DNA of 54,625 nt from Candidatus Magasanikiibacteriota bacterium. Its GTDB lineage: Bacteria; Patescibacteriota; Patescibacteriia; Magasanikbacterales; UBA922. The notes beneath the pieces are model-generated. The model made no database searches. It was not told the origin of the DNA and worked only from the letters and a program-made list of their open reading frames with translations. How positions within the stretch are numbered: position 1 is the first letter of the stretch; every line of letters starts with the position of its first letter. The DNA is taken from positions 1 through 54,625 of the forward strand of contig PBBY01000004.1 of assembly GCA_002716765.1 (NCBI GenBank), read 5' to 3'. The position numbers were made by a program, and so were the translations under genes. Below are positions 4,404 through 33,414 of this stretch, in pieces.

Positions 4404-5546
4404 TTACCTTTCCGTTTTTATTGGCCCGTCTATTGCTTCCACTTCTATTTGTCTTTCGCCTTTTGTGATTCGTACCACGTCTTTGTCTATTTTTCCAAGC
4501 TCTTTGTATGCAGCATTGTAATGATTGGTGGTGGTTTGCATACTGTTACCTAACTTTTGCATATACGCTTCGTATGCTTTTATGTGCTTTTGTAACAGTT
4601 CTACATTTTTTCGAATACTTTTGGCACTCTCTTCTATTTTTAATGCGCGCAGGCCTTGTAAAACAGTTTGTAAATAGGCGGCAAATGTTGTTGGCGACAC
4701 AATGATCACTTTCTTTTCTTTAAACGCGTATTCGATTAAATTTCGCGTATTTACTTTTACTGCACCAACTTCGTTTACGAGTAAATCATAATAAATAGCT
4801 TCGGCTGGAATAAACATAAAGGCAAAATCCATCGTGCCTGATTGTGTTTTTATATATTTCGACGTTTCGTCAATGCGTTTTTTTAAATCATTTTTAAATG
4901 CTTTTTCCAGCTCTGCACGCCGCTGTTTGTTTTCTTCGTCAACAAGTTTATTGTAATTTTCTAAAGGAAACTTTGCATCAACCGGAATAATGCCATCTTT
5001 GGTAAACACTGCTGCGTCAACCGTGTCTCCATCTTCAAATTCGTATTGCAAAGCAAAAGCACCGGGTGGTAATATGTTTTCCAAAACAAGTTGTAATCCT
5101 GCCTCACCTAAATTTCCACGTTGTTTTTGACTTGTAAGTACTTTTTCCAAATTTGTTAGTTGTGCAGAAAATCCAATTACTTGTTGATTAGTTTTATCTA
5201 AACTAGTAAGTTTTTCGGTAATTTCTCCTATCATTTTTGCGCTTTGGCCAGAAATGCCTTGAATGAGTCTGGTGTTTTGTGAAAATTGCTCTTGGAGTGT
5301 GTTGTGTAGATGTTGCTGTGAAGTACTCATGGCTTTTGTTGACTCTGCAATTTTTTGATCAAGTGTTTTGGTAAGGTCTTGCACACTTCGTGCTTGTTCT
5401 TGGATTTGATTTTGGATCATAATAAACAGGTTGTCGTCACCTTCTTTTGGTTTTTGTAAGTCAGTAAGTTTTTGTTGCATTGAAAAGATGAAATACAGTG
5501 TAATAAGTAGTATGACAAGAAGTACAAAAATAAGCATGATTTCCAT
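4404..5546 (-). CDS. rmuC: DNA recombination protein RmuC family
   Basis: N-terminal TM, coiled coil, then GNLGEAGLQLVLENILPPGAFALQYEFEDG..VDAAVFTKDGIIPVDAKFPLENY typical of RmuC. Confidence 0.88.
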   Translation of the reverse strand: MEIMLIFVLLVILLITLYFIFSMQQKLTDLQKPKEGDDNLFIMIQNQIQEQARSVQDLTKTLDQKIAESTKAMSTSQQHLHNTLQEQFSQNTRLIQGISGQSAKMIGEITEKLTSLDKTNQQVIGFSAQLTNLEKVLTSQKQRGNLGEAGLQLVLENILPPGAFALQYEFEDGDTVDAAVFTKDGIIPVDAKFPLENYNKLVDEENKQRRAELEKAFKNDLKKRIDETSKYIKTQSGTMDFAFMFIPAEAIYYDLLVNEVGAVKVNTRNLIEYAFKEKKVIIVSPTTFAAYLQTVLQGLRALKIEESAKSIRKNVELLQKHIKAYEAYMQKLGNSMQTTTNHYNAAYKELGKIDKDVVRITKGERQIEVEAIDGPIKTER

Positions 5547-6688: not shown

Positions 6689-6760
6689 GTCCCTGTAGTT
6701 TAATGGATAGAACACTCCCCTCCTAAGGGAGAAATCCACGTTCGATTCGTGGTGGGGACA
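6689..6760 (+). tRNA. tRNA-Arg (anticodon CCT)
   Basis: Cloverleaf by eye: acceptor GTCCCTG/TGGGGAC, anticodon arm CTCCC-CTCCTAA-GGGAG, T arm CCACG-TTCGATT-CGTGG, discriminator A. Confidence 0.95.
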
Positions 6761-6897
6761 CAAATAGTTCAATGTATAAAGCTTTTGCTTTTATTATAGA
6801 TTTCTTACATCCAGTTCGAAATGACTGTAACGCTATTCATTGAAATTTTCTTAGTCTATTCTTCTATTTGTATAGACTAGTATATACAAATATAAAC

Positions 6898-7164
6898 TGT
6901 GGATAATTTCTATTTGAGTAGTCTAATCTAGACAAATAAATATGCAAATCATATATTTGAGTAGTCTAATCTAGACATTTATAAATAAAGTTTTTTTACT
7001 ATTTTTATTTACTTTTTTAAAAAAATACAAAATACACGAATATTTTCTTTATTTGAGTATTCTATTCTAGACAAATAGGATTTTGTAAAAAATCTTTTTG
7101 AGTAGTCTACTCTAGACAAAAAACTGTGGATAATCTCTATTTGAGTATTCTAATCTAGACAAAT
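6898..7164. repeat. Iteron-like array: five 26-bp palindromic repeats with two interspersed DnaA-box matches
   Basis: ATTTGAGTAGTCTAATCTAGACAAAT-type repeats at 6912, 6955, 7051, ~7095 and 7139; TGTGGATAA at 6898-6906 and 7125-7133. Confidence 0.8.
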
Positions 7165-7241: not shown

Positions 7242-7257
7242 TGTTTCATGTGAAAGT
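7242..7257. promoter_or_regulatory. parS-like site 1 (degenerate)
   Basis: TGTTTCATGTGAAAGT, 13/16 match to TGTTTCACGTGAAACA. Confidence 0.45.
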
Positions 7258-7424: not shown

Positions 7425-7440
7425 TGTTTCCGGTGAAACA
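7425..7440. promoter_or_regulatory. parS-like site 2
   Basis: TGTTTCCGGTGAAACA, 14/16 match to TGTTTCACGTGAAACA. Confidence 0.6.
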
Positions 7441-7500: not shown

Positions 7501-7516
7501 TGTTTCCGGTGAAACA
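7501..7516. promoter_or_regulatory. parS-like site 3
   Basis: TGTTTCCGGTGAAACA, identical to site 2. Confidence 0.6.
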
Positions 7517-7590: not shown

Positions 7591-7631
7591 TTATACACAA
7601 TTTACTTATTTTATCCACAAGTTAATCCACA
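7591..7631. promoter_or_regulatory. DnaA-box cluster
   Basis: TTATACACA (7591-7599), TTATCCACA (7611-7619), TTAATCCACA (7622-7631) next to AT-rich DNA. Confidence 0.65.
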
Positions 7632-7865: not shown

Positions 7866-7881
7866 TAGTTCACGTGAAACA
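7866..7881. promoter_or_regulatory. parS-like site 4
   Basis: TAGTTCACGTGAAACA, 14/16 match to the parS consensus with intact CACGTG core. Confidence 0.6.
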
Positions 7882-8378: not shown

Positions 8379-8454
8379 GGTGGCCATGGTGAAACGGTTA
8401 TCACAGAGGTTTGTGGTACCTCTATTACGGGTTCGATTCCCGTTGGTCACCCCA
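8379..8454 (+). tRNA. tRNA-His (anticodon GTG), encoded G-1 and CCA
   Basis: G-1 plus acceptor GTGGCCA/TGGTCAC, anticodon loop TTGTGGT, T arm ACGGG-TTCGATT-CCCGT, C73 and CCA. Confidence 0.95.
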
Positions 8455-9762: not shown

Positions 9763-10287
9763 TTATAGCTGACTTCTGTTTGTGTTAAATTGGTTTTTTA
9801 TAAAGTCTCTTGTTTCTCTTTCTATAGCTTGTAGTTCGGATTCTTCGTTTCGGATGTTTGCATCTGTTTCATATTTTTCTATGAGTTGTCTATTGTCATC
9901 AGGTTCTCTTAGGAGTACTTGTGTCACAAAGACGGTGATTGAGTATGCCGATAGTACAATAACAAGACCAAGTGTGCTTATTTTTAAAATATTTTTTGCT
10001 TTTGTTACTTTTTCTTCTTCTCCAGCAGAGGTAAACATAAGGATTCCGGCATAAACTATGGTTAAGACAAAAAGTGTGCCAACAAAAGTAAGCCCATTTC
10101 GTATAATTGCTGCAATAACATCGCGTGGGTCTTTGGATTGGATTATGGCAAGGTCTTGCTCGGCGGCAGCTGAGCCAAGTTGTTTTACTAAATCTGTTCT
10201 GTAGTCAGCAGAAGTGCTGTCTACAAACATAAGAAAAGCCGCAAGCGTCATGGAAAAACAGAGGAGTGTGAAGATGTTTCTTTTCAT
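9763..10287 (-). CDS. T4SS pilin-like (VirB2/TrbC-type) paralog 1
   Basis: Signal peptide, two TMs, shared core LFVLTIVYAGILMFTSAGEEEKVTKAKNILKISTLGLVIVLSAYSITVFV. Confidence 0.75.
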   Translation of the reverse strand: MKRNIFTLLCFSMTLAAFLMFVDSTSADYRTDLVKQLGSAAAEQDLAIIQSKDPRDVIAAIIRNGLTFVGTLFVLTIVYAGILMFTSAGEEEKVTKAKNILKISTLGLVIVLSAYSITVFVTQVLLREPDDNRQLIEKYETDANIRNEESELQAIERETRDFIKNQFNTNRSQL

Positions 10288-10299
10288 ATATATAAAATA

Positions 10300-10803
10300 T
10301 TATCTACTTACGCAGTCGAATGAGCCTTTTTGCCAGAATTTCCATTTATTTACTTTGCACTGAACCGTTGGCGGTGCCTCTTGGTGAACCCGATCTTGCA
10401 AAGATTTAAGCATAACCTGGCTAACTATTGTAGTAATGGCATATGCAGAAAGGGTGACAAATAATCCAATAACGGCCATTTTTATGGTTGTGAGCGCTTT
10501 TGTTACTTTTTCTTGTTCTCCGGATGCGGTTAAGAGCATGATTCCGGAATAGAGTACAAGTAGTAAGAAGACGGTTCCAACCACAGTAAGAAGTGACTTA
10601 ATAAATTCGGCAATAACTACTTGTGGGTTTTCTCTTGCAACGCCCATTTCTGCACTTTCTGCGCCAGCTTTGAGTTGTTTTGTTACATTTGCCCCAAAAC
10701 CCTTCTGCTTTGTGTTTGTTTCAAGAGCGTTAGCATTTACGAATGAAAACGTAAAAAAGAAAAAAGAAAGACAAATGACTGAAATGAGTAGTTTTTTGTT
10801 CAT
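10300..10803 (-). CDS. T4SS pilin-like paralog 2
   Basis: Core LVLYSGIMLLTASGEQEKVTKALTTIKMAVIGLFVTLSAYAITTIV. Confidence 0.75.
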   Translation of the reverse strand: MNKKLLISVICLSFFFFTFSFVNANALETNTKQKGFGANVTKQLKAGAESAEMGVARENPQVVIAEFIKSLLTVVGTVFLLLVLYSGIMLLTASGEQEKVTKALTTIKMAVIGLFVTLSAYAITTIVSQVMLKSLQDRVHQEAPPTVQCKVNKWKFWQKGSFDCVSR

Positions 10804-10812
10804 AAAATAGTA

Positions 10813-11484
10813 TTAAAGTAATCCACCCGTGCCTTTTGTTTCGGATGCTTTGTTGAGTCGTTGGAAATTAAGACATTGTGATTCCCTGATTGTAACATAT
10901 TCGCAGTCTAGGGCGTCTGGGTTGTCTTGTTTTGTTTTGGAGGCACAGCCACCCCAATATGATTCACAATTAGATTCTTTTACATATGGAATAGTTTTAT
11001 ATACAGAGGTGGTATCAATGACAGCTTTTGGATCAAATTTTTCTAATAAACAACAGCCAATAATTGGGTCTTGTGCAGAAGACTTTCCTTCGCCGGTTGC
11101 CCGTTTTACAAATTGTGGTACCACAAAGTTGGTAATGGTGTATGCGCCGGTGGTTATAACAATACCAATAATAGCCATGCGAATAGTGGTAATGGATTTG
11201 GTTACTTTTTCGTCCTCTCCGCGTGCGGTTAAGTACAGAAATCCAGCGTAAAACATGAGTGCAAAAAAGAGAGTTCCAATAAATTGCAGGGCAAGGTTTA
11301 TTACTCTTCCAATATTTGTGGCTACACGTGTTTCGTCTGTTCCGGTTACATCAAATCCAGATTTCCTTGCAATGCTTGCACCAAGATCTTGACCAATATT
11401 TAGTTGAGCAAACACGGAGTTTGCAACAAAAAAAGAAAGGAGAAGTGCCAGGAGAATAAAAAGGTAGGTGGTGTTTTTTTTCAT
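10813..11484 (-). CDS. T4SS pilin-like paralog 3, Cys-containing C-terminal tail
   Basis: Core LMFYAGFLYLTARGEDEKVTKSITTIRMAIIGIVITTGAYTITNFV; tail GCCLLEKF...CESYWGGC...CEYVTIRESQC. Confidence 0.75.
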   Translation of the reverse strand: MKKNTTYLFILLALLLSFFVANSVFAQLNIGQDLGASIARKSGFDVTGTDETRVATNIGRVINLALQFIGTLFFALMFYAGFLYLTARGEDEKVTKSITTIRMAIIGIVITTGAYTITNFVVPQFVKRATGEGKSSAQDPIIGCCLLEKFDPKAVIDTTSVYKTIPYVKESNCESYWGGCASKTKQDNPDALDCEYVTIRESQCLNFQRLNKASETKGTGGLL

Positions 11485-11515
11485 AAGGATTTTGCTGGGT
11501 TAATTAGTGTGTTTA

Positions 11516-12055
11516 TTATCTTCTTTCAGGGGGAACACACTGGTTTTCTGGAATACGTTTTATTTCTCCGGCACAATTATTCTTTTCTTGCTGATTACTG
11601 GCTACGTTTGCGCCTGTTGGAATATTTTTTGTAAATGTTATACAACAATCAACTATTTTTGCTCCTTTTATGTCGGAGGTTTTTGACGTGATTCTTGGTA
11701 AAATAAAAGTAGTAAGGCTGTATGCGCCAATACATAAAACAAGACCAATTATGGATGTACGAATAGTACCTTTTGCTTTTGTGGCTTTTTCTTCGTTTTC
11801 TCTGGCAGTCATCCACATTAATCCGGCATAAACAGTAAGTGCAAGGAAAATGGTTCCGACAAAGGTAAGCAATACATTAATAGTAAACCCAATAGTAGCA
11901 GAAAGTGTTGTGTCTGTTGTTGATTTATCAAAACCAGCAGTTGCTGCTGCATTTCTGACTTTATTTGTACCAATGTCTACTACGGCAAAAGCGGGAAGAG
12001 TAACAAAAAATACCAATATAATGACAGAAATAAAGAGTGAAAGTTTTTTTCGCAT
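11516..12055 (-). CDS. T4SS pilin-like paralog 4, Cys tail
   Basis: Core LTVYAGLMWMTARENEEKATKAKGTIRTSIIGLVLCIGAYSLTTFI; tail DCCITF..NCAGEIKRIPENQC. Confidence 0.75.
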   Translation of the reverse strand: MRKKLSLFISVIILVFFVTLPAFAVVDIGTNKVRNAAATAGFDKSTTDTTLSATIGFTINVLLTFVGTIFLALTVYAGLMWMTARENEEKATKAKGTIRTSIIGLVLCIGAYSLTTFILPRITSKTSDIKGAKIVDCCITFTKNIPTGANVASNQQEKNNCAGEIKRIPENQCVPPERR

Positions 12056-12064
12056 AAAAATTAA

Positions 12065-12454
12065 TTAACCTATACTTCCTAATTGTGCGGTAATAAGGTA
12101 TGTAATAGCATAAGCACTTAACGTAATAACTAATCCAATAAGTGTGGTTCGAATTATTGTTTTTGCTTTTGTGGCTTGTTCTTCGTTTTCTCTGGCAGTC
12201 ATCCATAAATAGCCGGCGTAAACCATAAGAACAAGGAAAATAAGACCAATAAAAGACAACGCCACTTGAATAACATTTCCAATAATAACGTCGAGTGATG
12301 CGGTCTTCTTTGTTACCCCAGCCTTACCTGCAGAAGTTGTAAGTTTTTTTTCCCAATCTCCTAATGTTCCGGCAGCGTGTGCGGTGCTTGCGTAAATAAC
12401 TCCAGCAAAAGTAAGTGAAAGGGTGGTGAATTGTTTTTTATATTTGTTTGTCAT
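12065..12454 (-). CDS. T4SS pilin-like paralog 5 (minimal form)
   Basis: Core LMVYAGYLWMTARENEEQATKAKTIIRTTLIGLVITLSAYAITYLI. Confidence 0.75.
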   Translation of the reverse strand: MTNKYKKQFTTLSLTFAGVIYASTAHAAGTLGDWEKKLTTSAGKAGVTKKTASLDVIIGNVIQVALSFIGLIFLVLMVYAGYLWMTARENEEQATKAKTIIRTTLIGLVITLSAYAITYLITAQLGSIG

Positions 12455-12505
12455 ATATTTGCTAACTTTTGTGTAAAGTATTAAACCTAAGATTTTTATT
12501 TATAG

Positions 12506-13207
12506 TTAATTTAGTTGCCAATTAGGTTCACTAAATAGAGTGGTCTGCAAGTCATCCCCGCCAAATTCATTGGCTTTATTGCATATATCTACACAAAGGC
12601 TGTAGCTGCTAAATGTAGAATTAAATCCCGAGGTTCCATTACCACAAACCGGGTCTCCAACCGAGCAGCTTTTTTGCTCTAGCACACACTCTTCTTTTGT
12701 TTTTATGGAACAGGAATATTCATTTGTACCCCAAGAGTCGTTAATCATGTTTATGCAACAACCATAAACCAGGTCTTTTGCTTCCTCAATTTTTTGGCCA
12801 CCTGTTGGTTTTGTTGTTCCGGTTGCACCTTGTAATACAACATTTGTAATAGTGTAGGAAGAAATGACAATAATTAGCCCGATAATTGCTGTTGTCATCA
12901 TGGTTCTGGCTTTTTTTGCTTGTTCTTCGTTTTCTCTTGCGATCATCCAGGTGTAGCCGGCGTATACCATAAGAATAAAAAACACGGCAGTAATAAGGGA
13001 AAGTGCAAGATTTATAATAGTTCCTGATTGGGATTCTACAGTTTGTGTCGCGTCTATTCCTGTGCCTGTTATAGAGGCTTCAAGGAAGTTTGTTGCGCCT
13101 CGTAGTGTTTTCTCATTTGCTTTTGTGTGTAATATGTTAAAAAATAACGAAAAACAGAAACAACTGGCAAGAAGAAAGAGAGTATTTCGTGATAGTTTTT
13201 TGTTCAT
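12506..13207 (-). CDS. T4SS pilin-like paralog 6, Cys-rich tail
   Basis: Core LMVYAGYTWMIARENEEQAKKARTMMTTAIIGLIIVISSYTITNVV; tail with CC and multiple Cys. Confidence 0.75.
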   Translation of the reverse strand: MNKKLSRNTLFLLASCFCFSLFFNILHTKANEKTLRGATNFLEASITGTGIDATQTVESQSGTIINLALSLITAVFFILMVYAGYTWMIARENEEQAKKARTMMTTAIIGLIIVISSYTITNVVLQGATGTTKPTGGQKIEEAKDLVYGCCINMINDSWGTNEYSCSIKTKEECVLEQKSCSVGDPVCGNGTSGFNSTFSSYSLCVDICNKANEFGGDDLQTTLFSEPNWQLN

Positions 13208-13241
13208 AGCAGTGGTTTGAGGTTAAGGAAGGTGTGGGTTA

Positions 13242-13634
13242 TTATTGACTGCCATCAGTCGGAGGAGATGTATTCTCTTCTACGCTTGTAAAGACAAAAT
13301 TGGTAATGGCGTAGGCGGAAAGTACCACAACCAATCCTATAATTGCGGCAATAATGGTTTTTTGTGCTTCTTTTACACCCTCTTCGTTTCCTCTGGCGGT
13401 CATCCATTTAAATCCAGCGTATACCATAAGGATAAAGAAAATAACACCAATTATAGAAAGTATGGTTCCGATAAGGTTTCCAATAATAGCTTCTGGCTCC
13501 TCTTTAATGGTTAGTCCGGCATAATTGGCAGTAATCTCTAATCCACCAGCTTCTGCAGCAAAACTATGTGCCGCTGGAAAAAGTGTAAAAAGGAGAATAG
13601 TAAGACTGCTAAATAATATAATGGATTTTTTCAT
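13242..13634 (-). CDS. T4SS pilin-like paralog 7 (minimal form)
   Basis: Core LMVYAGFKWMTARGNEEGVKEAQKTIIAAIIGLVVVLSAYAITNFVF. Confidence 0.75.
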   Translation of the reverse strand: MKKSIILFSSLTILLFTLFPAAHSFAAEAGGLEITANYAGLTIKEEPEAIIGNLIGTILSIIGVIFFILMVYAGFKWMTARGNEEGVKEAQKTIIAAIIGLVVVLSAYAITNFVFTSVEENTSPPTDGSQ

Positions 13635-13700
13635 AGAGTTAAGTTAATGGTTTTTTTATATTTTTGTGTCGTTTTTTCATAATAGAGTTTCAATTCAATC

Positions 13701-14495
13701 CTAATTAGGTTCTCTGAGTTCTTGACAAATGCATGTTTCTTTATCATCAGTCAACTCACAATTACCAACCCATCCTTTGTTGGAGCATGCTTCTCCTACA
13801 TTCTTACCAATACAAGCATCCCAAGTTGAAAATGTGCCATCTGGTTGTGCTTTTACTTCTGTATTTGGACAAAGTCCTGGTACAAGAAGCTCGGTAAGTG
13901 CTTTTATGTCTTCGTTTTGTGGTGAACATTGTTCCGCATTATTTGTAGGATAAAATGTGTTGGCAAAATAATCAGTATTTTGACCCCTTGCACTATTAAA
14001 TGCATCATCACACTCTTTTTGGGTAAATAAACTTTCAATTAAGAAAATACCTTTTTCTTTATCTTTTGGGATCAGTACACAACACCCTTTATCTCCTTCA
14101 TTCTCACTCTCACCTTCTAAACTGGAAAACAAGAAATTTGTTAATGAATATGACGAAAGTACTATGATTAATCCAACCGATGCTGCAATTATGGTACTTT
14201 GTGCTTTTTTTGCTTGATCTTCTTTTCCTCTTGCTGTCATCCACAAAATTCCTGCATAAACCATTAGGATAAAAAATATTACGGCAACGGTGTAGAGTAA
14301 CGCGCCCAATGCTTTTCCGATCATTGTTGGGATGTCTCTATTTTTTCTAAAATCTGCATCTACTATGCTGTTTGTATCAGAAAATCCTTTTTTTACTTGT
14401 TCTATTGCGTTACTTTGTGCCAATGTGTGTTGAAATGGCGCAATACACAAAAATAATAGAAGTAATAGGAGTATATTTTTGTGTCGTTTTTTCAT
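13701..14495 (-). CDS. T4SS pilin-like paralog 8, Cys-rich tail
   Basis: Core LMVYAGILWMTARGKEDQAKKAQSTIIAASVGLIIVLSSYSLTNFLF, nearly identical to the 14512-15258 gene; long Cys tail. Confidence 0.75.
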   Translation of the reverse strand: MKKRHKNILLLLLLFLCIAPFQHTLAQSNAIEQVKKGFSDTNSIVDADFRKNRDIPTMIGKALGALLYTVAVIFFILMVYAGILWMTARGKEDQAKKAQSTIIAASVGLIIVLSSYSLTNFLFSSLEGESENEGDKGCCVLIPKDKEKGIFLIESLFTQKECDDAFNSARGQNTDYFANTFYPTNNAEQCSPQNEDIKALTELLVPGLCPNTEVKAQPDGTFSTWDACIGKNVGEACSNKGWVGNCELTDDKETCICQELREPN

Positions 14496-14511
14496 AACTA
14501 TTTATCAGTTA

Positions 14512-15258
14512 TTAAGGATTTGGTTCGGCTGCTGCACAGCCGCAAACAGAGTCTTCTAACTCACATACACTACCCACTTTTTGGTCACAAATTTCTCCAA
14601 TCCTTCTTCCTATACAAAGATTTTGCCTTGGTTTTTCTGTGGAAACTTGTGTGTTTGGACAAAGTTCTGGTACAAAAAGGTTTGACTGTTCACTTGTTTG
14701 GAAGGCGGTTTCACAGTGACAGTGATTTGGAATATTTGTGTAGTTTTTTATTTGACAAGTACCTTGAATGTTACCCTGATTAGGAATAATAATGGTACAG
14801 ACACTGTCTATTGGTTTATTGTAGCAAGGTGTTTCCATGTTTCCTCCATGAACCACCTTAGATGAGCAGTTCTGTATACTCTCACCCTCCAAACTCGCAA
14901 ACAAGAAATTTGTTAATGAATATGACGAAAGTACTATGATTAATCCAACCGATGCTGCAATTATGGTGCTTTGTGCTTTTTTTGCTTGATCTTCTTTTCC
15001 TCTTGCTGTCATCCACAAAATTCCTGCATAAACCATTAGGATAAAAAATATTACGGCAACGGTGTAGAGTAACACACCCAATGCTTTTCCGATCATTATT
15101 GGGATGTTTGTTTTTTTAAGGCCGGAGTCTGTTATTTGTCCTGCGGTTTGATCTAATCCAAGTTTGCCAAATTTTGTTACGGCAGCAAATGATTGAATTG
15201 GGGCAAAACACACAAAAAAGAGAAATATGATTGATACTATAATGAAACATTTTTTCAT
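14512..15258 (-). CDS. T4SS pilin-like paralog 9, Cys-rich tail
   Basis: Core shared with paralog 8; divergent Cys-rich tail. Confidence 0.75.
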   Translation of the reverse strand: MKKCFIIVSIIFLFFVCFAPIQSFAAVTKFGKLGLDQTAGQITDSGLKKTNIPIMIGKALGVLLYTVAVIFFILMVYAGILWMTARGKEDQAKKAQSTIIAASVGLIIVLSSYSLTNFLFASLEGESIQNCSSKVVHGGNMETPCYNKPIDSVCTIIIPNQGNIQGTCQIKNYTNIPNHCHCETAFQTSEQSNLFVPELCPNTQVSTEKPRQNLCIGRRIGEICDQKVGSVCELEDSVCGCAAAEPNP

Positions 15259-15290
15259 ACTTTTGTATGTGTTTTACGGGTTTTGCGCTG

Positions 15291-15707
15291 TTATTGTTGG
15301 TCTACTCTTTCTGTTTCTACGCCCGTTTCATAATCAATTCCTGTGGTTGCGCTATATAGTTGTGTAGTAACAAATCTGGAAATAGAGTAGGCGCTTAAAA
15401 TTAATGCTAAACCAATAACCGATGAAAAGAGTACTTTTTTTGCTTTTGCTACTTGATCGTCATTTCCTCCGGAAGTCATCCACATAAATCCTGCATACAC
15501 AATAAGAATGAGTGCGACAATACCAAGTAATCCAAGGGCAACGTTAATAATTTCTGCTGTTGTTGTTCGAATATCTTTTGCACCAAGACCAGAACGTGCA
15601 CCATGACGAACACCAAGTGGGTCAGCACCTTGAGCTTGGGTTGCGGTTGGTAAAACAGTGAATGAAAAGAAGAGAAAGGCACAAGCAAAAAGACAAGCTT
15701 TTTTCAT
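15291..15707 (-). CDS. T4SS pilin-like paralog 10
   Basis: Core LIVYAGFMWMTSGGNDDQVAKAKKVLFSSVIGLALILSAYSISRFV. Confidence 0.75.
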   Translation of the reverse strand: MKKACLFACAFLFFSFTVLPTATQAQGADPLGVRHGARSGLGAKDIRTTTAEIINVALGLLGIVALILIVYAGFMWMTSGGNDDQVAKAKKVLFSSVIGLALILSAYSISRFVTTQLYSATTGIDYETGVETERVDQQ

Positions 15708-15818
15708 AGAAGTGTATTATGTAAATAATATGCGCATCACCTTGTAAAAGATGGTGTAAAAACTAGAAATTAGAGACTACTTTCCAGTTTTTAAAAGGGA
15801 ATAACCCCTTTTAAATTA

Positions 15819-16277
15819 TTAAAAACTATATTGATTTGCTCCGGTAACAGCAGTGGCTTGACCAAGTTGAATAAGCACAAATCTGGCGATTGCCCAGGCA
15901 CTCATTATGATTGCCAAACCAATTATTCCAGATAAAATAAGTTTCTTTGCTTCTTCTACTTTGTCGTCGTTTCCTCCGGCAGTCATCCATTTAAATCCAC
16001 CAAGAAGAATTATAACAACAGCAACGATTCCAAGTAAGCTCAGCATAACATTTATGATTCTGGCAACGGTTGTTTGCAAATCTGCTTTTCCAAGTGCAGT
16101 GGTTTCGTGAATTGGATCAATACCAAAAACATCATCATTTTGTGCGGCACCTTGATTGTTTGGTTCAACCCCACCATCGTTTGCAAAAACATTTGATGCG
16201 GCTAATGTAGAAAATAGTACGGCTGCAATAATTGCAATAATAGTTTTGTATTTTACTAAACGCATTGCTAAATACAT
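15819..16277 (-). CDS. T4SS pilin-like paralog 11 (tandem-duplicate copy A)
   Basis: Strong SD AGGAGGTGATATT-ATG; MYLAMRLVKYKTIIAIIA... core GGFKWMTAGGNDDKVEEAKKLILSGIIGLAIIMSAWAIARFVLIQLGQ. Confidence 0.8.
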   Translation of the reverse strand: MYLAMRLVKYKTIIAIIAAVLFSTLAASNVFANDGGVEPNNQGAAQNDDVFGIDPIHETTALGKADLQTTVARIINVMLSLLGIVAVVIILLGGFKWMTAGGNDDKVEEAKKLILSGIIGLAIIMSAWAIARFVLIQLGQATAVTGANQYSF

Positions 16278-16402
16278 AATATCACCTCCTTTTTTGTGTG
16301 GTTTGTCATATATTTTTGTTCTTCACCTAAAAGATGAAGTAAAAACTAGAAATTATAGACTACTTTCCAGTTTTTAAAAGGGAATAACCCCTTTTAAAAT
16401 TA

Positions 16403-16912
16403 TTATAGTTCGTATGCTGTTGCTCCGGTAACATCTGTTGCTTGGCCAAGTTGAATAAGTACAAATCTGGCAATTGCCCAGGCACTCATTACAATAGCTA
16501 AACCAATAATTCCAGCTAAAATAAGTTTCTTTGCTTCTTCTACTTTGTCGTCGTTTCCAGCTGCTGTCATCCATTTAAATCCACCAAGAAGTATGATAAC
16601 TACTGCAACAATCCCAAGTAAACTTAATGCAACGTTAATGATTCTTGCAATAGTAGTTTGTAAATCTGCTTTTCCTAGTGCGGTTGTGCCATGAATGGAG
16701 TCCATACCAAATACATCAACTTGAGCTGCAACTTTACAAATACCATTGAAACAGACGTCGGTTTCTAATGTACAAGTATTTCCAGGTAGACACACGTCAT
16801 CTGTATCACCAGCTGCTGCAAAAACACTTGATGCGGCTAATGTAGAAAATAGTACTGTTGCAATAATTGCAATAATAGTTTTGTATTTTACTAAACGCAT
16901 TGCTAAATACAT
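16403..16912 (-). CDS. T4SS pilin-like paralog 12 (tandem-duplicate copy B, extra Cys segment)
   Basis: Same leader, core and SD as copy A; N-terminal insertion with CLPGNTCTLETDVCFNGICK. Confidence 0.8.
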   Translation of the reverse strand: MYLAMRLVKYKTIIAIIATVLFSTLAASSVFAAAGDTDDVCLPGNTCTLETDVCFNGICKVAAQVDVFGMDSIHGTTALGKADLQTTIARIINVALSLLGIVAVVIILLGGFKWMTAAGNDDKVEEAKKLILAGIIGLAIVMSAWAIARFVLIQLGQATDVTGATAYEL

Positions 16913-16985
16913 AGTATCACCTCCTTTCGTTGTTGGGTTTGTTTCATATAATAATACAGTATGGGAATAATATAATAAAAAAACG

Positions 16986-17414
16986 CTAAAAAATCCCCAG
17001 TATTTGGTTTAGTATAGCATAAGAACCAAAAATCACAAAAAGACCAATGGTTGCGTATAACATGGTTTGTGTGCCTTTTTTTACTTTTTCTTGGTTTCCG
17101 GCAGAGGTAAGCCACATAAACCCACCAAACATAAATGCCAAAAGCGTTAATGATCCAATAATTCCTAATGCTGTTTGCGCAACTTTTCCTATGAGCTCCT
17201 GAGGTGTGGCAGATGCAATTGGGTTTTGAAGCTGTCTTACTTTAGGTGCTATCTTGCTAAGGACGGGTGTTTGTGCTTTCGTATTTTGAGGCACTGCTGG
17301 AGCTGTTGCTGTAGCAGCTGTTGCAAAAGAGGTAAAAGAAAAACAAAAGCCACTAATTAAAATAAGAAAAAGAAATAATTGAATAGGAGAAAGGAGTTTG
17401 CGTTTAGCAGTCAT
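16986..17414 (-). CDS. T4SS pilin-like paralog 13
   Basis: Core FMFGGFMWLTSAGNQEKVKKGTQTMLYATIGLFVIFGSYAILNQIL. Confidence 0.75.
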   Translation of the reverse strand: MTAKRKLLSPIQLFLFLILISGFCFSFTSFATAATATAPAVPQNTKAQTPVLSKIAPKVRQLQNPIASATPQELIGKVAQTALGIIGSLTLLAFMFGGFMWLTSAGNQEKVKKGTQTMLYATIGLFVIFGSYAILNQILGIF

Positions 17415-17503
17415 AAAATACGTATAAAGTAATAGTTAATAGTATAGCATTAACGTGTTGGAAAAAAAAGGCGTAGCACTGTGCAAAACACACACGTAAG
17501 TTG

Positions 17504-18262
17504 TTATTTTATTACGCGTACGTTTTCTTTTACGCCAGTTGTGTCTAAAACAATTTGTATTATTAAATGAGCAAAAATTGCGATACAAATACCAATAACC
17601 GCGGCAATCATAATACCTTGACCTTTTTTAAACTTTTCCGGGTTTCCAAAAGACATAATCATGGTAAATCCACCAAATAAAAACATAACAAAAGCAATGG
17701 AACCAATAATACTTAAAATAAATTCAGAAATGTTAATACCAATACATAAATAATCATTGAGATTTCTACAATTGCCATCTACGGCGCATTGTGGTAATAA
17801 TCCTTCCACTTTTTTGCATCTGTCTACAAGTGGTTCTTGGAGTTTTTTTGCAATTTCTTTTTCTGCTGGGCCAATGCTTGCGCTTATTGTTGTGATTTCG
17901 TCAAGTGTTTTATTTAAGACTTCAACACTTTTCAAAAAATCAATATTCTGGCTTAAGTTTAAGGGGTCTACTGTTAGAACTTCTAAAATAATGTTTTCCG
18001 CCTCAGTTAACAGATCTTTTACTTTTTCAATCACAAGTTTAGCTTCTGTTTGGTAGGCAAGGTCTTTTGTACTTGCTAATAACGTTTTAGCCTCATCCAT
18101 AATTCTTTCTGAGTCTGTTAAGATACTGTCTTCGTATGATCCTTCTACAAACAAATCAGAAATTTTTTGCGCCTTTACTACAAAAGGTAAAAATAGAGCA
18201 CAAATAATACTACATATAATGGTGTGTATAAAAAAGCGGGGGAGTGTGCGAGAGTGTGTCAT
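17504..18262 (-). CDS. T4SS pilin-like paralog 14 with long N-terminal extracellular extension
   Basis: ~160-aa extension, LPQCAVDGNCRNLNDYLCIGINIS, then FMLFGGFTMIMSFGNPEKFKKGQGIMIAAVIGICIAIFAHLII-like core. Confidence 0.7.
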   Translation of the reverse strand: MTHSRTLPRFFIHTIICSIICALFLPFVVKAQKISDLFVEGSYEDSILTDSERIMDEAKTLLASTKDLAYQTEAKLVIEKVKDLLTEAENIILEVLTVDPLNLSQNIDFLKSVEVLNKTLDEITTISASIGPAEKEIAKKLQEPLVDRCKKVEGLLPQCAVDGNCRNLNDYLCIGINISEFILSIIGSIAFVMFLFGGFTMIMSFGNPEKFKKGQGIMIAAVIGICIAIFAHLIIQIVLDTTGVKENVRVIK

Positions 18263-18271
18263 ATAGTGGTA

Positions 18272-18985
18272 TTATTTTACAGCTCTAAAACTGTCATGTG
18301 TACCAAGAGTATCTAGAATAAGATCCACAATAAGATGTGCCGAAAGTGCAACAACAATTCCTACAACGGCCAAAACCATAATACTTCTACCTTTTTTAAA
18401 CTTTTCTGGGTTTCCAAAAGACATGATCATGGTAAAACCACCAAATAAAAACATCACAAAAGCGATGGAACCAATTAATTGAAGGAGGAGTTTTGATATA
18501 TTTATTCCCATGCAAACATAATCATCGGTATCAAGACAATTACCATCCAAAGCACATTGTGGTAATAAGCCTTTAATAGCTGCACATCGGTTTGGGAGGT
18601 TGTCTGATAAGGTGTTAAAACTAGCGCTTGTTTTGGTTCTTAATGCGGTAATTTTTGTTTCAATATTAAGTTTGTTAACTTCAAGAAGATCTGCTTGTTT
18701 GGAATTATTTTTTGCAAATGTATCCCACTTTTCTGCTAATTCTAACTCTGCTTCAAATCTTTTATAGGTAGTGTTTGCTGTTTCTTTTGTGGCAAAACGA
18801 GGTATGTCTCTTGCTGCATCTTGGGCGGCTTTTAGGTGTGTGTTAGCTTGGTCTATTGCTTTTTGTATTGCCGGATCTGTTATTGCTAAAGCAGTGTACT
18901 GAATGGCAAAAAAGGCACATATACAAAGAGTGGCATAAAAGAAATAATGGATTTTTTTAAAGCGAAAATAATTGCGCGTGATCAT
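18272..18985 (-). CDS. T4SS pilin-like paralog 15 with long N-terminal extension
   Basis: LPQCALDGNCLDTDDYVCMGINIS and FLFGGFTMIMSFGNPEKFKKGRSIMVLAVVGIVVALSAHLIVDLIL; close to the 17504 gene. Confidence 0.7.
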   Translation of the reverse strand: MITRNYFRFKKIHYFFYATLCICAFFAIQYTALAITDPAIQKAIDQANTHLKAAQDAARDIPRFATKETANTTYKRFEAELELAEKWDTFAKNNSKQADLLEVNKLNIETKITALRTKTSASFNTLSDNLPNRCAAIKGLLPQCALDGNCLDTDDYVCMGINISKLLLQLIGSIAFVMFLFGGFTMIMSFGNPEKFKKGRSIMVLAVVGIVVALSAHLIVDLILDTLGTHDSFRAVK

Positions 18986-29027: not shown

Positions 29028-29915
29028 ATGACTCGTATCCAGTATTATATTCTTATTTGTTTTGTGGCGGTGGTTTTTTTTTCTGATACCAAACAAAGTC
29101 ATGCGATCACTATTTCCCCATTACGTCATGCTATTGTTTTAGAAAAAGGAGAAGAAAGAACTGTCTCGCTTGCGGTATATAATGAAACGGCAGAGGTTGT
29201 GACTGTTGTACCAGAAGTAGATGCGTTTTCTATTCATCCAAAAACAGGGGTTGCCCAGTTTGGGGCACCAGACAAAGCTAAAACATGGATAAGTGCGGCA
29301 CAAAAAAACCAAACCATTGTACCGGGCGACCAAAAACAATTAGACTTTCTTATTCGTGTACCAAAAGACGCAAAAGCAGAATCACACCATATTGGATTAT
29401 TTGCAACACAGCCGTCTACTTTGGGTGCGGTAACGATCGGTTCTCGAACAGGTTCGTTATTATCACTACACATTGCCGGAGAGGTAGAAGAGTCTATAGC
29501 CTTACGTGATTTTTCTGTAGAAAAAAAATTGGTTACCACACCAAAAACAACTCTGTTTCTTCATCTTAATAATGCGGGGACAATTCACCTGGTACCAACT
29601 GGCGGTATTCGCCTAATAAACAGAAAAGGAGAGATATTGGAAGATATATCGATCAACCCAGAAGAAAGTAGTGTGTTAAACGGAGAGCAATTTGTTCGTA
29701 ACTATGCCACATCTCAGCTATCTGTTAAAGATGTGGGAAAAATACGCGTACAACTATATATGAAATATGGTATTACACACCGTGAAATGAGTCATGAAAT
29801 TGCCTTTTGGTATATACCAAAAATACTTTTTTATGGCGGTATTTTTTTTGGTATTAGTATATTAATAGGTATGGTTAGTGTGTGGTATAAAAAATTATTA
29901 TACGCCAATGACTAA
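29028..29915 (+). CDS. Surface protein with DUF916/WxL-interacting-like ectodomain and C-terminal TM
   Basis: ITISPLRHAIVLEKGEERTVSLAVYNETAEVVTVVPEV..., C-terminal IPKILFYGGIFFGISILIGMVSVWYKK. Confidence 0.6.
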   Translation: MTRIQYYILICFVAVVFFSDTKQSHAITISPLRHAIVLEKGEERTVSLAVYNETAEVVTVVPEVDAFSIHPKTGVAQFGAPDKAKTWISAAQKNQTIVPGDQKQLDFLIRVPKDAKAESHHIGLFATQPSTLGAVTIGSRTGSLLSLHIAGEVEESIALRDFSVEKKLVTTPKTTLFLHLNNAGTIHLVPTGGIRLINRKGEILEDISINPEESSVLNGEQFVRNYATSQLSVKDVGKIRVQLYMKYGITHREMSHEIAFWYIPKILFYGGIFFGISILIGMVSVWYKKLLYAND

Positions 29916-32900
29916 ACAGAAAAATAATTCACTTGGATTTATGTATGGATTTTTTTTCTCTGTATTTTTTGGTACATTTTTTTTGGGGCAAACTGTTTTT
30001 GGTTTTGCTGTAGACGTTACAACAAGTGTGACTTATGGTTGTGGTAATGGGGTAAAAGAAGCGGGAGAAGAATGTGAAGGAAATGATTTTGGTGGAAAAA
30101 ATTGTTTTAATAGAGGATTTAATGGTGGTACATTACAATGTATTAACTGTCGTATAGATACTAGTAATTGTGAGGTTGCGCCAGGTCAGGGTGCGCCAGC
30201 TGCACCACCTCAGCCACCAGACCCAGTTTGTGGAAATGAAATAGTGGAATTCGGAGAAGTATGTGACGATGGAAATGACATAGAAACTGATGCATGTCTT
30301 TCTACTTGTGTTGCTGCAGCATGTGGTGATGGATTTATTCAGGAAGGTGTTGAAGTATGTGACGATGGAAATGACATAGAAACTGACGCATGTCTTTCTA
30401 CTTGTGTTGCTGCAGCATGTGGTGATGGATTTATTCAGGAAGGTGTTGAGGCGTGCGATGATGGGAATATTGCCAATAATGATGGGTGTTCCAATATTTG
30501 CGAAGAAGAAGCGCCTGCGGTAAATTGTGGAAATCAAGAAATTGACGAAGGAGAGGAGTGTGATGACGGGAATATACTTCCAGGAGATGGTTGTGATATT
30601 GCTTGCATTGTTGAAGTCTGTGGTAATGGTGTTGTGCAAGCTGGCGAGGATTGTGACGATGCTAATCAGGATAATACCGATGCCTGTTTAAATAATTGTA
30701 CCGCTGCTTTTTGTGGTGACGGTATTGTTCATGCAGAAGTGGAAGCGTGCGATGATGGGAATATTGAGGATGGAGACGCATGTAATGCAGAATGTGAAAT
30801 TCCAGAAGTGGCGATTTGTGGAAATGGTATACAAGAAGCCGAAGAAGCTTGTGATGATGGAAATCAAAATAATGGAGATGTATGCACCAACTTATGTAGT
30901 GTGGCGGTGTGTGGCGATGGTTTGGTTCACGAAAACGTAGAGGCCTGTGATGATGGAAATCAAAATAATGAAGATGTTTGTACGAATCAATGTGTGATTG
31001 CGGTTTGTGGTGATGGTATTGTTCGTGCAGAAACAGAAGAGTGCGACGATGGAAATAATATTAACAATGATGGGTGTTCGGCGCAATGTACTAATGAAGT
31101 GGAGCCGGTTTGTGGTGATGGTATTTTGCAATTTTTAGAAGAGTGCGACGATGGTAATAATGACGATACAGATAATTGTACCAATAATTGTGCTTTTGCA
31201 ATTTGTGGAGACACCATTATTCGTGCTGGCGTGGAACAATGCGACGATGGTAATAATGACGATACCGATGTGTGCACCAATCAATGTTTGGTTGCAATTT
31301 GTGGTGACGGATCGGTGCATGTTGGTGTGGAGCAGTGTGATGATGGAAACGTGCAAGATAACGATGGTTGTTCTGCGCAATGTGTAAATGAGGTTCAGCC
31401 AGCATGTGGTGATGGTATTGTTCAACCCCCGGAAGAGTGTGATAGTAATTTGTTTGGTGGAAATAGTTGTATTACCAAAGGGTTTGTTGGAGGAGATTTG
31501 TTGTGTGATGCTGTGTGTAGAATCAAAACAGATAATTGTTTGCCAAGAGTCTTACGTGAACAAGATCCAGAAAATCCTATTATTGCACTAGAAGAACCAT
31601 TAGAAGAACCAGAAATTCCTCGTATTGGGTTAGGAAATATTATTATTACCATTGGAAATGGAAAAATTCGTGCAGGGACACAAGAGCGTCGTATTACGAC
31701 ATTGGTTGGCGATACCATTACATTTGCTGCCGAAAACAAACTTTTCGAGGATTTTGATATTACACGTATCACTATTGTTGGTAACGGACAAGCAAAAGAA
31801 TTACGTTTTCGCGCAGATAAAAATAGATATCTTATTACACACACCGTTGACCGGGTTGGAGAAACACCGCTTCAAATGATTGTAGAATATGGCGATGGTG
31901 AATCAATTCCAACCCCTTTTGCAGTTATTGGAGAAATGCGTGGTAGTATTAGCGACGAAAATGGTAACGGAATTGTTGGTGCAACTATTACGCTTATAGA
32001 TGAAAAAACTGACAATGAATGGAATGGGCAATTATATAATCAACAAAACCCGGCCGCAACACAAGCACCAAATGGAACCTATGGATTTATTGTTCCAAAT
32101 GGAAAGTACATCATGCGTATAGAAAAAGAAGGGTTTCACACAAAAGAAACATTTACGCTTCGCATTACTGATAATATTGTACAGCAGTCATTTACTTTGG
32201 TAGCATTATTACCGCCGCTACAAGAAGATATTGCAGAAATTTTGGCACAAGATATTCCTGCGGTTGCAAAAATAGGACAAGTTGCCGAAGTAATTACCAA
32301 AAAATTAGGAGAAAATACTAAACTTGCTGCACAGGCTGTAGTAGAAACAGCGCAACTTATAGATGAAATTGCCGACGACCCATTGGTAGAAGAAATTACC
32401 GAAGAAGTTGTTGTTCCGGCTGGTGGAAGTGCTGTTACGGTTGTAATGGCACCATCACTGTGGAACATTATTTTACCATTAACACGATTTTTATTTTTAC
32501 AACCACTGCTATTATTATCCAGAAGGAAAAAACGTGAATGGGGAATGGTCTATAATAGTTTAACAAAGCTACCTATAGATTTGGCTGTCGTTCGCATTAT
32601 TGATGCAAAAACAAAAAAAGTAAAACAATCTCGGGTAACCGATGGAAAAGGAAGGTTTTTGTTTATTGCCGAACCGGGGTCATATATTTTGGAGATTGCA
32701 AAAAGTGGTTTTTCGTTCCCTTCAACTATTTTACAAAATACGAAACAAGATGGTGCATTTGCCGAGGTGTATCATGGAGAACCAATTGTGGTGACAGAAG
32801 AAGGTGTTGGTGTCACGCCAAACATCCCACTTGATCCAGCTGGTGCAGAAAAAACACCAAAAAGAATTATTTGGGAAAAGCGTATGCGCATTGTACAGCA

Positions 32901-33414
32901 TGGATTTTCTTTGTCCGGAGTATTTTTTACGTCGATCTCGGTATATGTAACACCAACACCAACTGTTTTTGCTTTTCTTGGGTTACATATACTTCTGTAT
33001 TTTGGATTTGTCCATTTTGTTAAACCAAAAAAACCAAAAGGGTGGGGAATTATTTACGATACCAATTCCAAAGAACCGCTTTCACAAGCTGTTGTTCGGT
33101 TGTTTACCAAAGAATATAATAAATTGGTTTCTACGTTTGTTACAGACAGAAAAGGACGATACGCCTTTTTGGTTGGGCCAAGTACTTATTTTTTAACCAT
33201 GCAAAAAAAGGGATATACAAACGAATCAATTGATCCAATTGTGGTAAAAGCAAAAAAAGGTGAAGAGGGTATTATTAAAACAGATGCTGCATTACAAAAA
33301 GAAAATGGTAACAATGCGTCTACAAAACCTGCAGAAGCTCCAGAAAAATTACCAGTAGTACCGACAGAGGGTGAGTTAAAAATAGAAGAAGAGTTACCGC
33401 AAGAAAAAAAGTAG
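29908..33414 (+). CDS. Giant Cys-rich repeat surface protein (DUF4215/Myxococcus-type repeats plus CarboxypepD_reg-like domains and TMs)
   Basis: 12 CDDG/CDDA-type units (e.g. CGDGIVQ..EECDDGNNDDTDNCTNNC); later VGATITLIDEKT... and two TM-plus-regulatory modules. Start at MTKQKNN (29908), overlapping the previous gene. Confidence 0.85.
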   Translation: MTKQKNNSLGFMYGFFFSVFFGTFFLGQTVFGFAVDVTTSVTYGCGNGVKEAGEECEGNDFGGKNCFNRGFNGGTLQCINCRIDTSNCEVAPGQGAPAAPPQPPDPVCGNEIVEFGEVCDDGNDIETDACLSTCVAAACGDGFIQEGVEVCDDGNDIETDACLSTCVAAACGDGFIQEGVEACDDGNIANNDGCSNICEEEAPAVNCGNQEIDEGEECDDGNILPGDGCDIACIVEVCGNGVVQAGEDCDDANQDNTDACLNNCTAAFCGDGIVHAEVEACDDGNIEDGDACNAECEIPEVAICGNGIQEAEEACDDGNQNNGDVCTNLCSVAVCGDGLVHENVEACDDGNQNNEDVCTNQCVIAVCGDGIVRAETEECDDGNNINNDGCSAQCTNEVEPVCGDGILQFLEECDDGNNDDTDNCTNNCAFAICGDTIIRAGVEQCDDGNNDDTDVCTNQCLVAICGDGSVHVGVEQCDDGNVQDNDGCSAQCVNEVQPACGDGIVQPPEECDSNLFGGNSCITKGFVGGDLLCDAVCRIKTDNCLPRVLREQDPENPIIALEEPLEEPEIPRIGLGNIIITIGNGKIRAGTQERRITTLVGDTITFAAENKLFEDFDITRITIVGNGQAKELRFRADKNRYLITHTVDRVGETPLQMIVEYGDGESIPTPFAVIGEMRGSISDENGNGIVGATITLIDEKTDNEWNGQLYNQQNPAATQAPNGTYGFIVPNGKYIMRIEKEGFHTKETFTLRITDNIVQQSFTLVALLPPLQEDIAEILAQDIPAVAKIGQVAEVITKKLGENTKLAAQAVVETAQLIDEIADDPLVEEITEEVVVPAGGSAVTVVMAPSLWNIILPLTRFLFLQPLLLLSRRKKREWGMVYNSLTKLPIDLAVVRIIDAKTKKVKQSRVTDGKGRFLFIAEPGSYILEIAKSGFSFPSTILQNTKQDGAFAEVYHGEPIVVTEEGVGVTPNIPLDPAGAEKTPKRIIWEKRMRIVQHGFSLSGVFFTSISVYVTPTPTVFAFLGLHILLYFGFVHFVKPKKPKGWGIIYDTNSKEPLSQAVVRLFTKEYNKLVSTFVTDRKGRYAFLVGPSTYFLTMQKKGYTNESIDPIVVKAKKGEEGIIKTDAALQKENGNNASTKPAEAPEKLPVVPTEGELKIEEELPQEKK
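30256..30447 (+). repeat. Two near-identical 96-bp coding tandem repeats
   Basis: gaagtatgtgacgatggaaatgacatagaaactga(t/c)gcatgtctt... at 30256 and 30352; encodes EVCDDGNDIETDACLSTCVAAACGDGFIQEGV twice. Confidence 0.9.

Follow-up and report, generated by a model that had tools for sequence, protein, structure and literature searches.

An intergenic region of a Candidatus Magasanikiibacteriota genome carries a row of near-identical palindromes beside DnaA boxes, and it raises the question of which protein binds these repeats and to what end. The region lies in the window, by which we mean the whole stretch of 54,625 nucleotides analysed here (contig PBBY01000004.1 of assembly GCA_002716765.1). 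An earlier note on this DNA had read the repeats as an iteron array coupled to DnaA boxes, with an unknown binding protein.

Palindromic repeats, DnaA boxes and parS-like sites in the window

A pattern search of the window with up to three mismatches returned exactly five copies of the repeat, against a mean of 0 in 100 shuffles, and thereby recovered in full the five-copy array that had been placed at 6898-7164. Counted as 24-mers, the copies start at 6913, 6956, 7052, 7097 and 7140; the 26-mers begin one base earlier. Sites were also scored with a weight matrix, which was built from 22 sites in the HTH/ECF gaps of other genomes only, recognises the sites in the window and on contigs C2 and C18 of the same genome, and gave one match of at least 14 in 260 kb of non-target DNA. 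Copy 1 (TTTGAGTAGTCTAATCTAGACAAA, 6913..6936), copy 3 (TTTGAGTATTCTATTCTAGACAAA, 7052..7075), copy 4 (TTTGAGTAGTCTACTCTAGACAAA, 7097..7120) and copy 5 (TTTGAGTATTCTAATCTAGACAAA, 7140..7163) scored 17.4, 17.0, 16.4 and 17.0, respectively. Copy 2 (6956..6979), which has a CATT end in place of CAAA, carries two mismatches and scored below 14. A further palindromic site, TTTGTATAGACTAGTATATACAAA (6867..6890), was identified by a pattern match and a matrix score of 35.4, and is the nearest of all to the family consensus. The earlier note had seen an extra copy at about 6865-6892 and called it degenerate; the copy exists, but its score of 35.4 versus 16.4-17.4 for the four canonical copies does not bear out that description.

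When the segment 6391-8466 was shuffled by dinucleotides, 5 of 1000 shuffles attained a score of 14, which five of the six window sites exceed. A chance origin of the repeats is excluded. The repeats are real, comprising five near-identical copies of 24-26 bp and a sixth at 6867-6890. Start-to-start spacings of the five copies are 43, 96, 45 and 43 bp; the first two agree with the values previously given, while the last two had been put at 44 each. A period of about 43 bp holds within the window but is not a general feature, as other loci and relatives are without it.

Two DnaA boxes of sequence TGTGGATAA lie on the minus strand at 6898..6906 and 7125..7133, and each sits 5 nt before a 26-mer, that of copy 1 (6912) or copy 5 (7139), exactly as had been reported. 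This 5-nt distance is local to the window and is not kept by relatives at the corresponding locus. Two further DnaA-box-like sequences, TTATACACA and TTATCCACA, are present on the plus strand at 7591..7619. The same region contains two copies of a parS-like site, TGTTTCCGGTGAAACA, at 7425..7440 and 7501..7516, each with two mismatches to TGTTTCACGTGAAACA, and positions 7425 and 7501 are the only matches to TGTTTCNNNNGAAACA in the assembly. A degenerate parS-like site, TAGTTCACGTGAAACA, is found at 7866..7881 and a second one at 7242-7257.

The region has a conserved left border in tRNA-Arg(CCT) (6689..6761, plus strand) and a conserved neighbour in rmuC (4404..5546, minus strand; Pfam RmuC, 3.9e-52). 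On the far side lies tRNA-His(GTG) (8380..8454, plus strand), which several relatives also have there within a few kb. An Rfam search of the window gap gave the two tRNAs alone above the gathering score and no other known RNA.

Two other features of the window were noted. About a dozen consecutive pilin-like paralogues occupy the minus strand at 9763-18985, beside the parS region (the one tested matched T4SS_pilin at 8.2e-9). T4SS genes near dnaA have been reported in Patescibacteria (PMC12102498), which fits this row starting 9.8 kb into the window. An ORF of 1178 aa at 29878-33414 contains many CGDG...ECDDGN cysteine repeats that by eye resemble repeats of DUF4215 type.

The motif occurs in three settings

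Pattern searches of the 886-kb assembly gave exact matches to TTTGNNTA-N8-TANNCAAA only in the window and, upstream of holA, at C2:4038 and C2:4119. With one mismatch allowed, two more copies appeared ahead of the HTH gene on C18, at 12684 (score 13.5) and 12754 (21.4), as well as a few other matches with middling scores of up to 17.0 (C3:41032). Strong matches are confined to three places in the genome, the window (C4), C2:4038/4119 and C18:12684/12754, so the genome-wide search that the earlier note had proposed shows that the motif is not a scattered generic repeat. The canonical variant of the window, TTTGAGTA...TCTAGACAAA, recurs at C2; the hth promoter of this genome is without it and has different sites.

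Across the family, the spaced pattern was found in 39 of 46 genomes, and most matches resemble TTTGTATACACTAGTGTATACAAA even though the centre was left free. The family motif in these 46 genomes is the palindrome TTTGTATACACTAGTGTATACAAA, and it occurs in three settings. In the first, it separates two divergent operons, hth-DUF11 and ECF sigma-DUF5667; hth encodes a conserved HTH_17 protein of ~105 aa and precedes the DUF11 gene. In the second, it lies in the neighbourhood of dnaA, ahead of a traR/dksA-like gene, and abuts DnaA boxes at a constant spacing; in the genome studied here, this setting is represented by the C2 copies ahead of holA. In the third, it shares a noncoding region ahead of rmuC with the parS sites of the genome.

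The window array lies in the parS region and is not the replication origin

The window array is an instance of the third setting, and the intergenic region around it is the parS (centromere) region, orthologous to that of relatives. The order rmuC, tRNA-Arg(CCT), motif/parS recurs in relatives. Among 23 rmuC loci of Magasanikbacteria, 14 have the motif within 1.5 kb of parS, with nearest distances of 27 to 925 bp, and the other 9 have parS without the motif nearby; at rmuC loci outside Magasanikbacteria (L273-L321), neither motif nor parS was found nearby. Genome-wide, most TGTTTCACGTGAAACA sites are at the rmuC/parS locus: a genome of the same genus (G001) has 11 perfect sites in ~1 kb and G007 has 3, with few or none elsewhere in these two genomes. 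The RmuC of the same-genus genome (93% identical) belongs to a Candidatus Magasanikbacteria MAG. At the window region, too, TGTTTCACGTGAAACA-type sites are clustered, probably near the origin. ParB, with its ParB_N and HTH_ParB domains, is present in 46/46 genomes, including the one studied here. A literature search for ParB, parS and Patescibacteria jointly gave no paper.

The eleven perfect parS sites of G001 (L026:2363-3326) are unusually many and follow a partly regular ~27/112-bp pattern. A single-contig genome of the same family (G029) has ParB and RmuC, gave no match to a DnaA domain, HTH_17 or holA, and contains motif matches that look random.

In 23 genomes rmuC and dnaA are on one contig, a median of 14 kb apart. 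In the genome studied here they are on separate contigs, rmuC on that of the window and dnaA-dnaN on C2. Because of the 14-kb median, the window is probably origin-proximal, and no more than a few tens of kb probably separate its intergenic region from dnaA.

A noncoding, AT-rich stretch of 2 kb that contains DnaA boxes and repeated palindromes could be explained by a Rep- or DnaA-dependent origin within this region. In two relatives whose contigs are long (G011:C37, 329 kb, and G002:C17), however, cumulative GC skew reaches its minimum at dnaA-dnaN, roughly 8-20 kb away from the motif loci, and DnaA boxes and a TACTAT-rich tract are also present in the gap between dnaA and dnaN on C2. For these two reasons we conclude that the array is not oriC. 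Nor is the contig a plasmid, because it carries gyrA-like, aminoacyl-tRNA synthetase-like and ftsH-like ORFs (identified by reading). No Rep initiator gene was recognised among the scanned ORFs around the array. The origin or iteron reading was accordingly rejected on the skew of G011 and G002, which is indirect for the genome studied here, and we regard it as highly improbable. What survives of the earlier description is an array that is specific, coupled to DnaA boxes, origin-associated and not scattered; replication iterons it is not, and the parS character of the region had gone unmentioned.

DnaA boxes and a conserved promoter at the traR locus

At the traR locus, a DnaA box lies no more than 110 bp away from 28/33 sites, versus 7/81 at HTH loci, and the distances peak at +23-25, +35 and +55-57. 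This arrangement, and the origin-proximal noncoding position, would suit a DnaA-control element resembling E. coli datA or DARS, with the HTH_17 protein in the role of IHF or Fis. In the window, however, only two copies have a box at 5 nt, where its orientation is opposite to that at the traR locus and its distance differs, and most sites at other rmuC/parS loci have none (4/17 sites there have a box). By analogy such an element is conceivable, yet we consider it rather improbable.

All 16 of the 16 traR-upstream regions have a TTGAC-17-TAT promoter between the sites and traR, followed by a leader of 0.3-0.7 kb. An Rfam search of the region upstream of traR gave no match, and an alignment of the 16 leaders showed short conserved blocks and a weak consensus fold. 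The leader is a possible noncoding RNA of unknown type or cis-regulator. In G000:C2 (L008:4219-4890) and 15 relatives, the conserved strong promoter and untranslated leader are accompanied by terminator-like T runs before traR.

A candidate binder: the HTH_17 protein

The gene for the HTH_17 protein in the genome studied here is at G000:C18:12350-12655, with promoter sites that score 21.4 and 13.5. The protein is present in 42/46 family genomes and extends beyond the family to further families of the order and to part of the class; in sampled genomes of the other classes of the phylum, none was found at E<=1e-10. Its domain matches are HTH_17 and excisionase-family, and a PDB sequence search gave no significant relative and no match to RacA. 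A gene for a membrane-like DUF11 protein follows hth, and the ECF sigma factor best matches a BldN-family model, though under its cut-off. A literature search on DUF5667 together with sigma factors gave no paper.

One to four sites were found between hth and the ECF sigma gene at 39/42 HTH loci, including 19/22 genomes outside those used to train the matrix. Two or three copies, mostly with scores of 34-37, precede the HTH gene in two further families of this order. The three exceptions constitute one genus, g24 (G024, G059 and G060), in which the site now reads ATAGTATAC...GTATACTAT. The changed form occurs at 7 sites at the HTH locus in the three genomes. In G024 and G059 it also occupies 4 sites at the traR/DnaA-box locus, which is on a different contig, and one of these has retained the +24/+56 spacing. 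No canonical site is left in the traR and HTH loci examined in this genus (L322, L323 and L089-L091). Only in genus g24 does the HTH protein have RRAIA directly behind its predicted recognition helix; every other HTH protein has RRAIK/Q/R or RRALK there.

Since the change is concerted, the simplest account is that one trans-acting protein, and the HTH_17 protein in particular, serves both loci. The parallel between the altered motif at the first two settings and the unique HTH substitution is the strongest evidence and makes this protein the best candidate binder, a well-supported assignment on comparative sequence grounds, although the co-varying substitution represents a single evolutionary event in one genus. 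The array is a specific, palindromic one, and for the binder that the earlier note left unnamed a candidate can now be given.

Should a different protein bind the sites, the HTH_17 gene would merely own one of its operators. Two genomes (G019 and G018) lend this some weight, as both have sites, upstream of traR in G019 and likewise in G018, with no HTH gene detected; both are multi-contig MAGs. Also counting against HTH_17 as the binder is that the canonical variant of the window is not mirrored at the hth promoter of the same genome. The near-universal presence of the site at the HTH locus, in the family and the order, and the joint change of the operator and the HTH protein within a single genus point the other way, and we consider a different binder unlikely.

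Proposed role of the array

We favor the interpretation that the window repeats are an operator array for the conserved small HTH_17 protein of this order, set in the parS/centromere region, and judge it probable on comparative evidence, although 9 of the 23 rmuC loci, with parS but no motif close by, speak against it. At all three settings, TTTGTATACACTAGTGTATACAAA-type sites would be the targets of this protein. It would regulate its own synthesis through the sites in the shared upstream region of the hth-DUF11 and divergent ECF sigma-DUF5667 operons, bind beside DnaA boxes upstream of the promoter ahead of traR, and bind among the parS sites at the rmuC locus. At the traR and parS loci it may help DnaA and ParB complexes to form or to be controlled.

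It is also possible, though appreciably less likely, that the sites are plain transcriptional operators, with the HTH_17 protein as a local repressor or activator of nearby promoters such as that of the traR leader RNA. The location of sites within the shared promoter region of hth and the ECF sigma gene fits this, as does the 17-bp-spaced TTGAC/TAT promoter between the sites and traR in 16/16 regions. The sites at the parS locus, however, are not beside a protein-coding promoter (the nearest gene is tRNA-Arg, and rmuC is farther), and a coupling to DnaA boxes at fixed distances would be unexpected. We infer that at the traR and parS settings the HTH_17 protein would act in the architecture or regulation of replication and segregation, and not in promoter regulation alone. 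A bolder extension, which we regard as doubtful, is that HTH_17 is a second centromere- or origin-binding factor and that the DUF11 membrane protein and ECF sigma factor couple the state of the envelope to origin anchoring, replication and segregation.

To our knowledge, the control of replication and segregation in Patescibacteria, which have tiny genomes and are often episymbiotic, is almost unknown. What is gained for this group is a parS locus, a named candidate regulator and its exact operator, together with a testable connection of DnaA and the centromere to an ECF sigma pathway.

Comparison with known systems

The array shares with plasmid iterons its repeated units of ~22-26 bp near DnaA boxes; it differs in lying on a chromosomal contig and not at an origin, and its palindromic sites are also found ahead of a regulator gene. 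In outline, datA, DARS1 and DARS2 of E. coli each combine a noncoding DnaA-box cluster with a neighbouring site to which a helper protein binds. The noncoding loci described here likewise have DnaA boxes beside a putative helper-protein site, but the helper is not IHF or Fis, and the likeness is one of sequence layout alone. Compared with ParB-parS systems, the window region is the parS locus of a genome that has ParB, whereas the palindromes are not parS themselves and form a second site type among the parS sites.

BldC of Streptomyces binds head-to-tail direct repeats, AATTXXXX(C), and exemplifies the ability of small MerR-like proteins to bind arrays cooperatively (PMC5859096). The HTH_17 protein resembles BldC as a small, possibly MerR-like HTH protein without an effector domain, and its linked ECF sigma factor is nearest to the BldN-family model, below the cut-off. 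It differs in its putative 24-bp operator, a palindrome by sequence, and its conserved C-terminal extension. Because TGTATACA is itself self-complementary, the operator could also be read as direct repeats.

The closest working analogy, with no claim of membership in the RacA or BldC family, is RacA and its ram sites (PMC6593407). RacA of Bacillus subtilis is a MerR-like HTH protein whose repeated ram sites are dense near the origin and form a centromere-like element (PMC6593407), and it binds as a symmetric dimer (PMC5859096). The RacA site is GC-rich, and ram also occurs across the rest of the chromosome, whereas the sites described here are AT-rich, are limited to about three loci, and belong to a candidate protein with no sequence match to RacA. 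Common to both is an HTH protein, here a candidate, paired with repeated sites that are dense near the origin.
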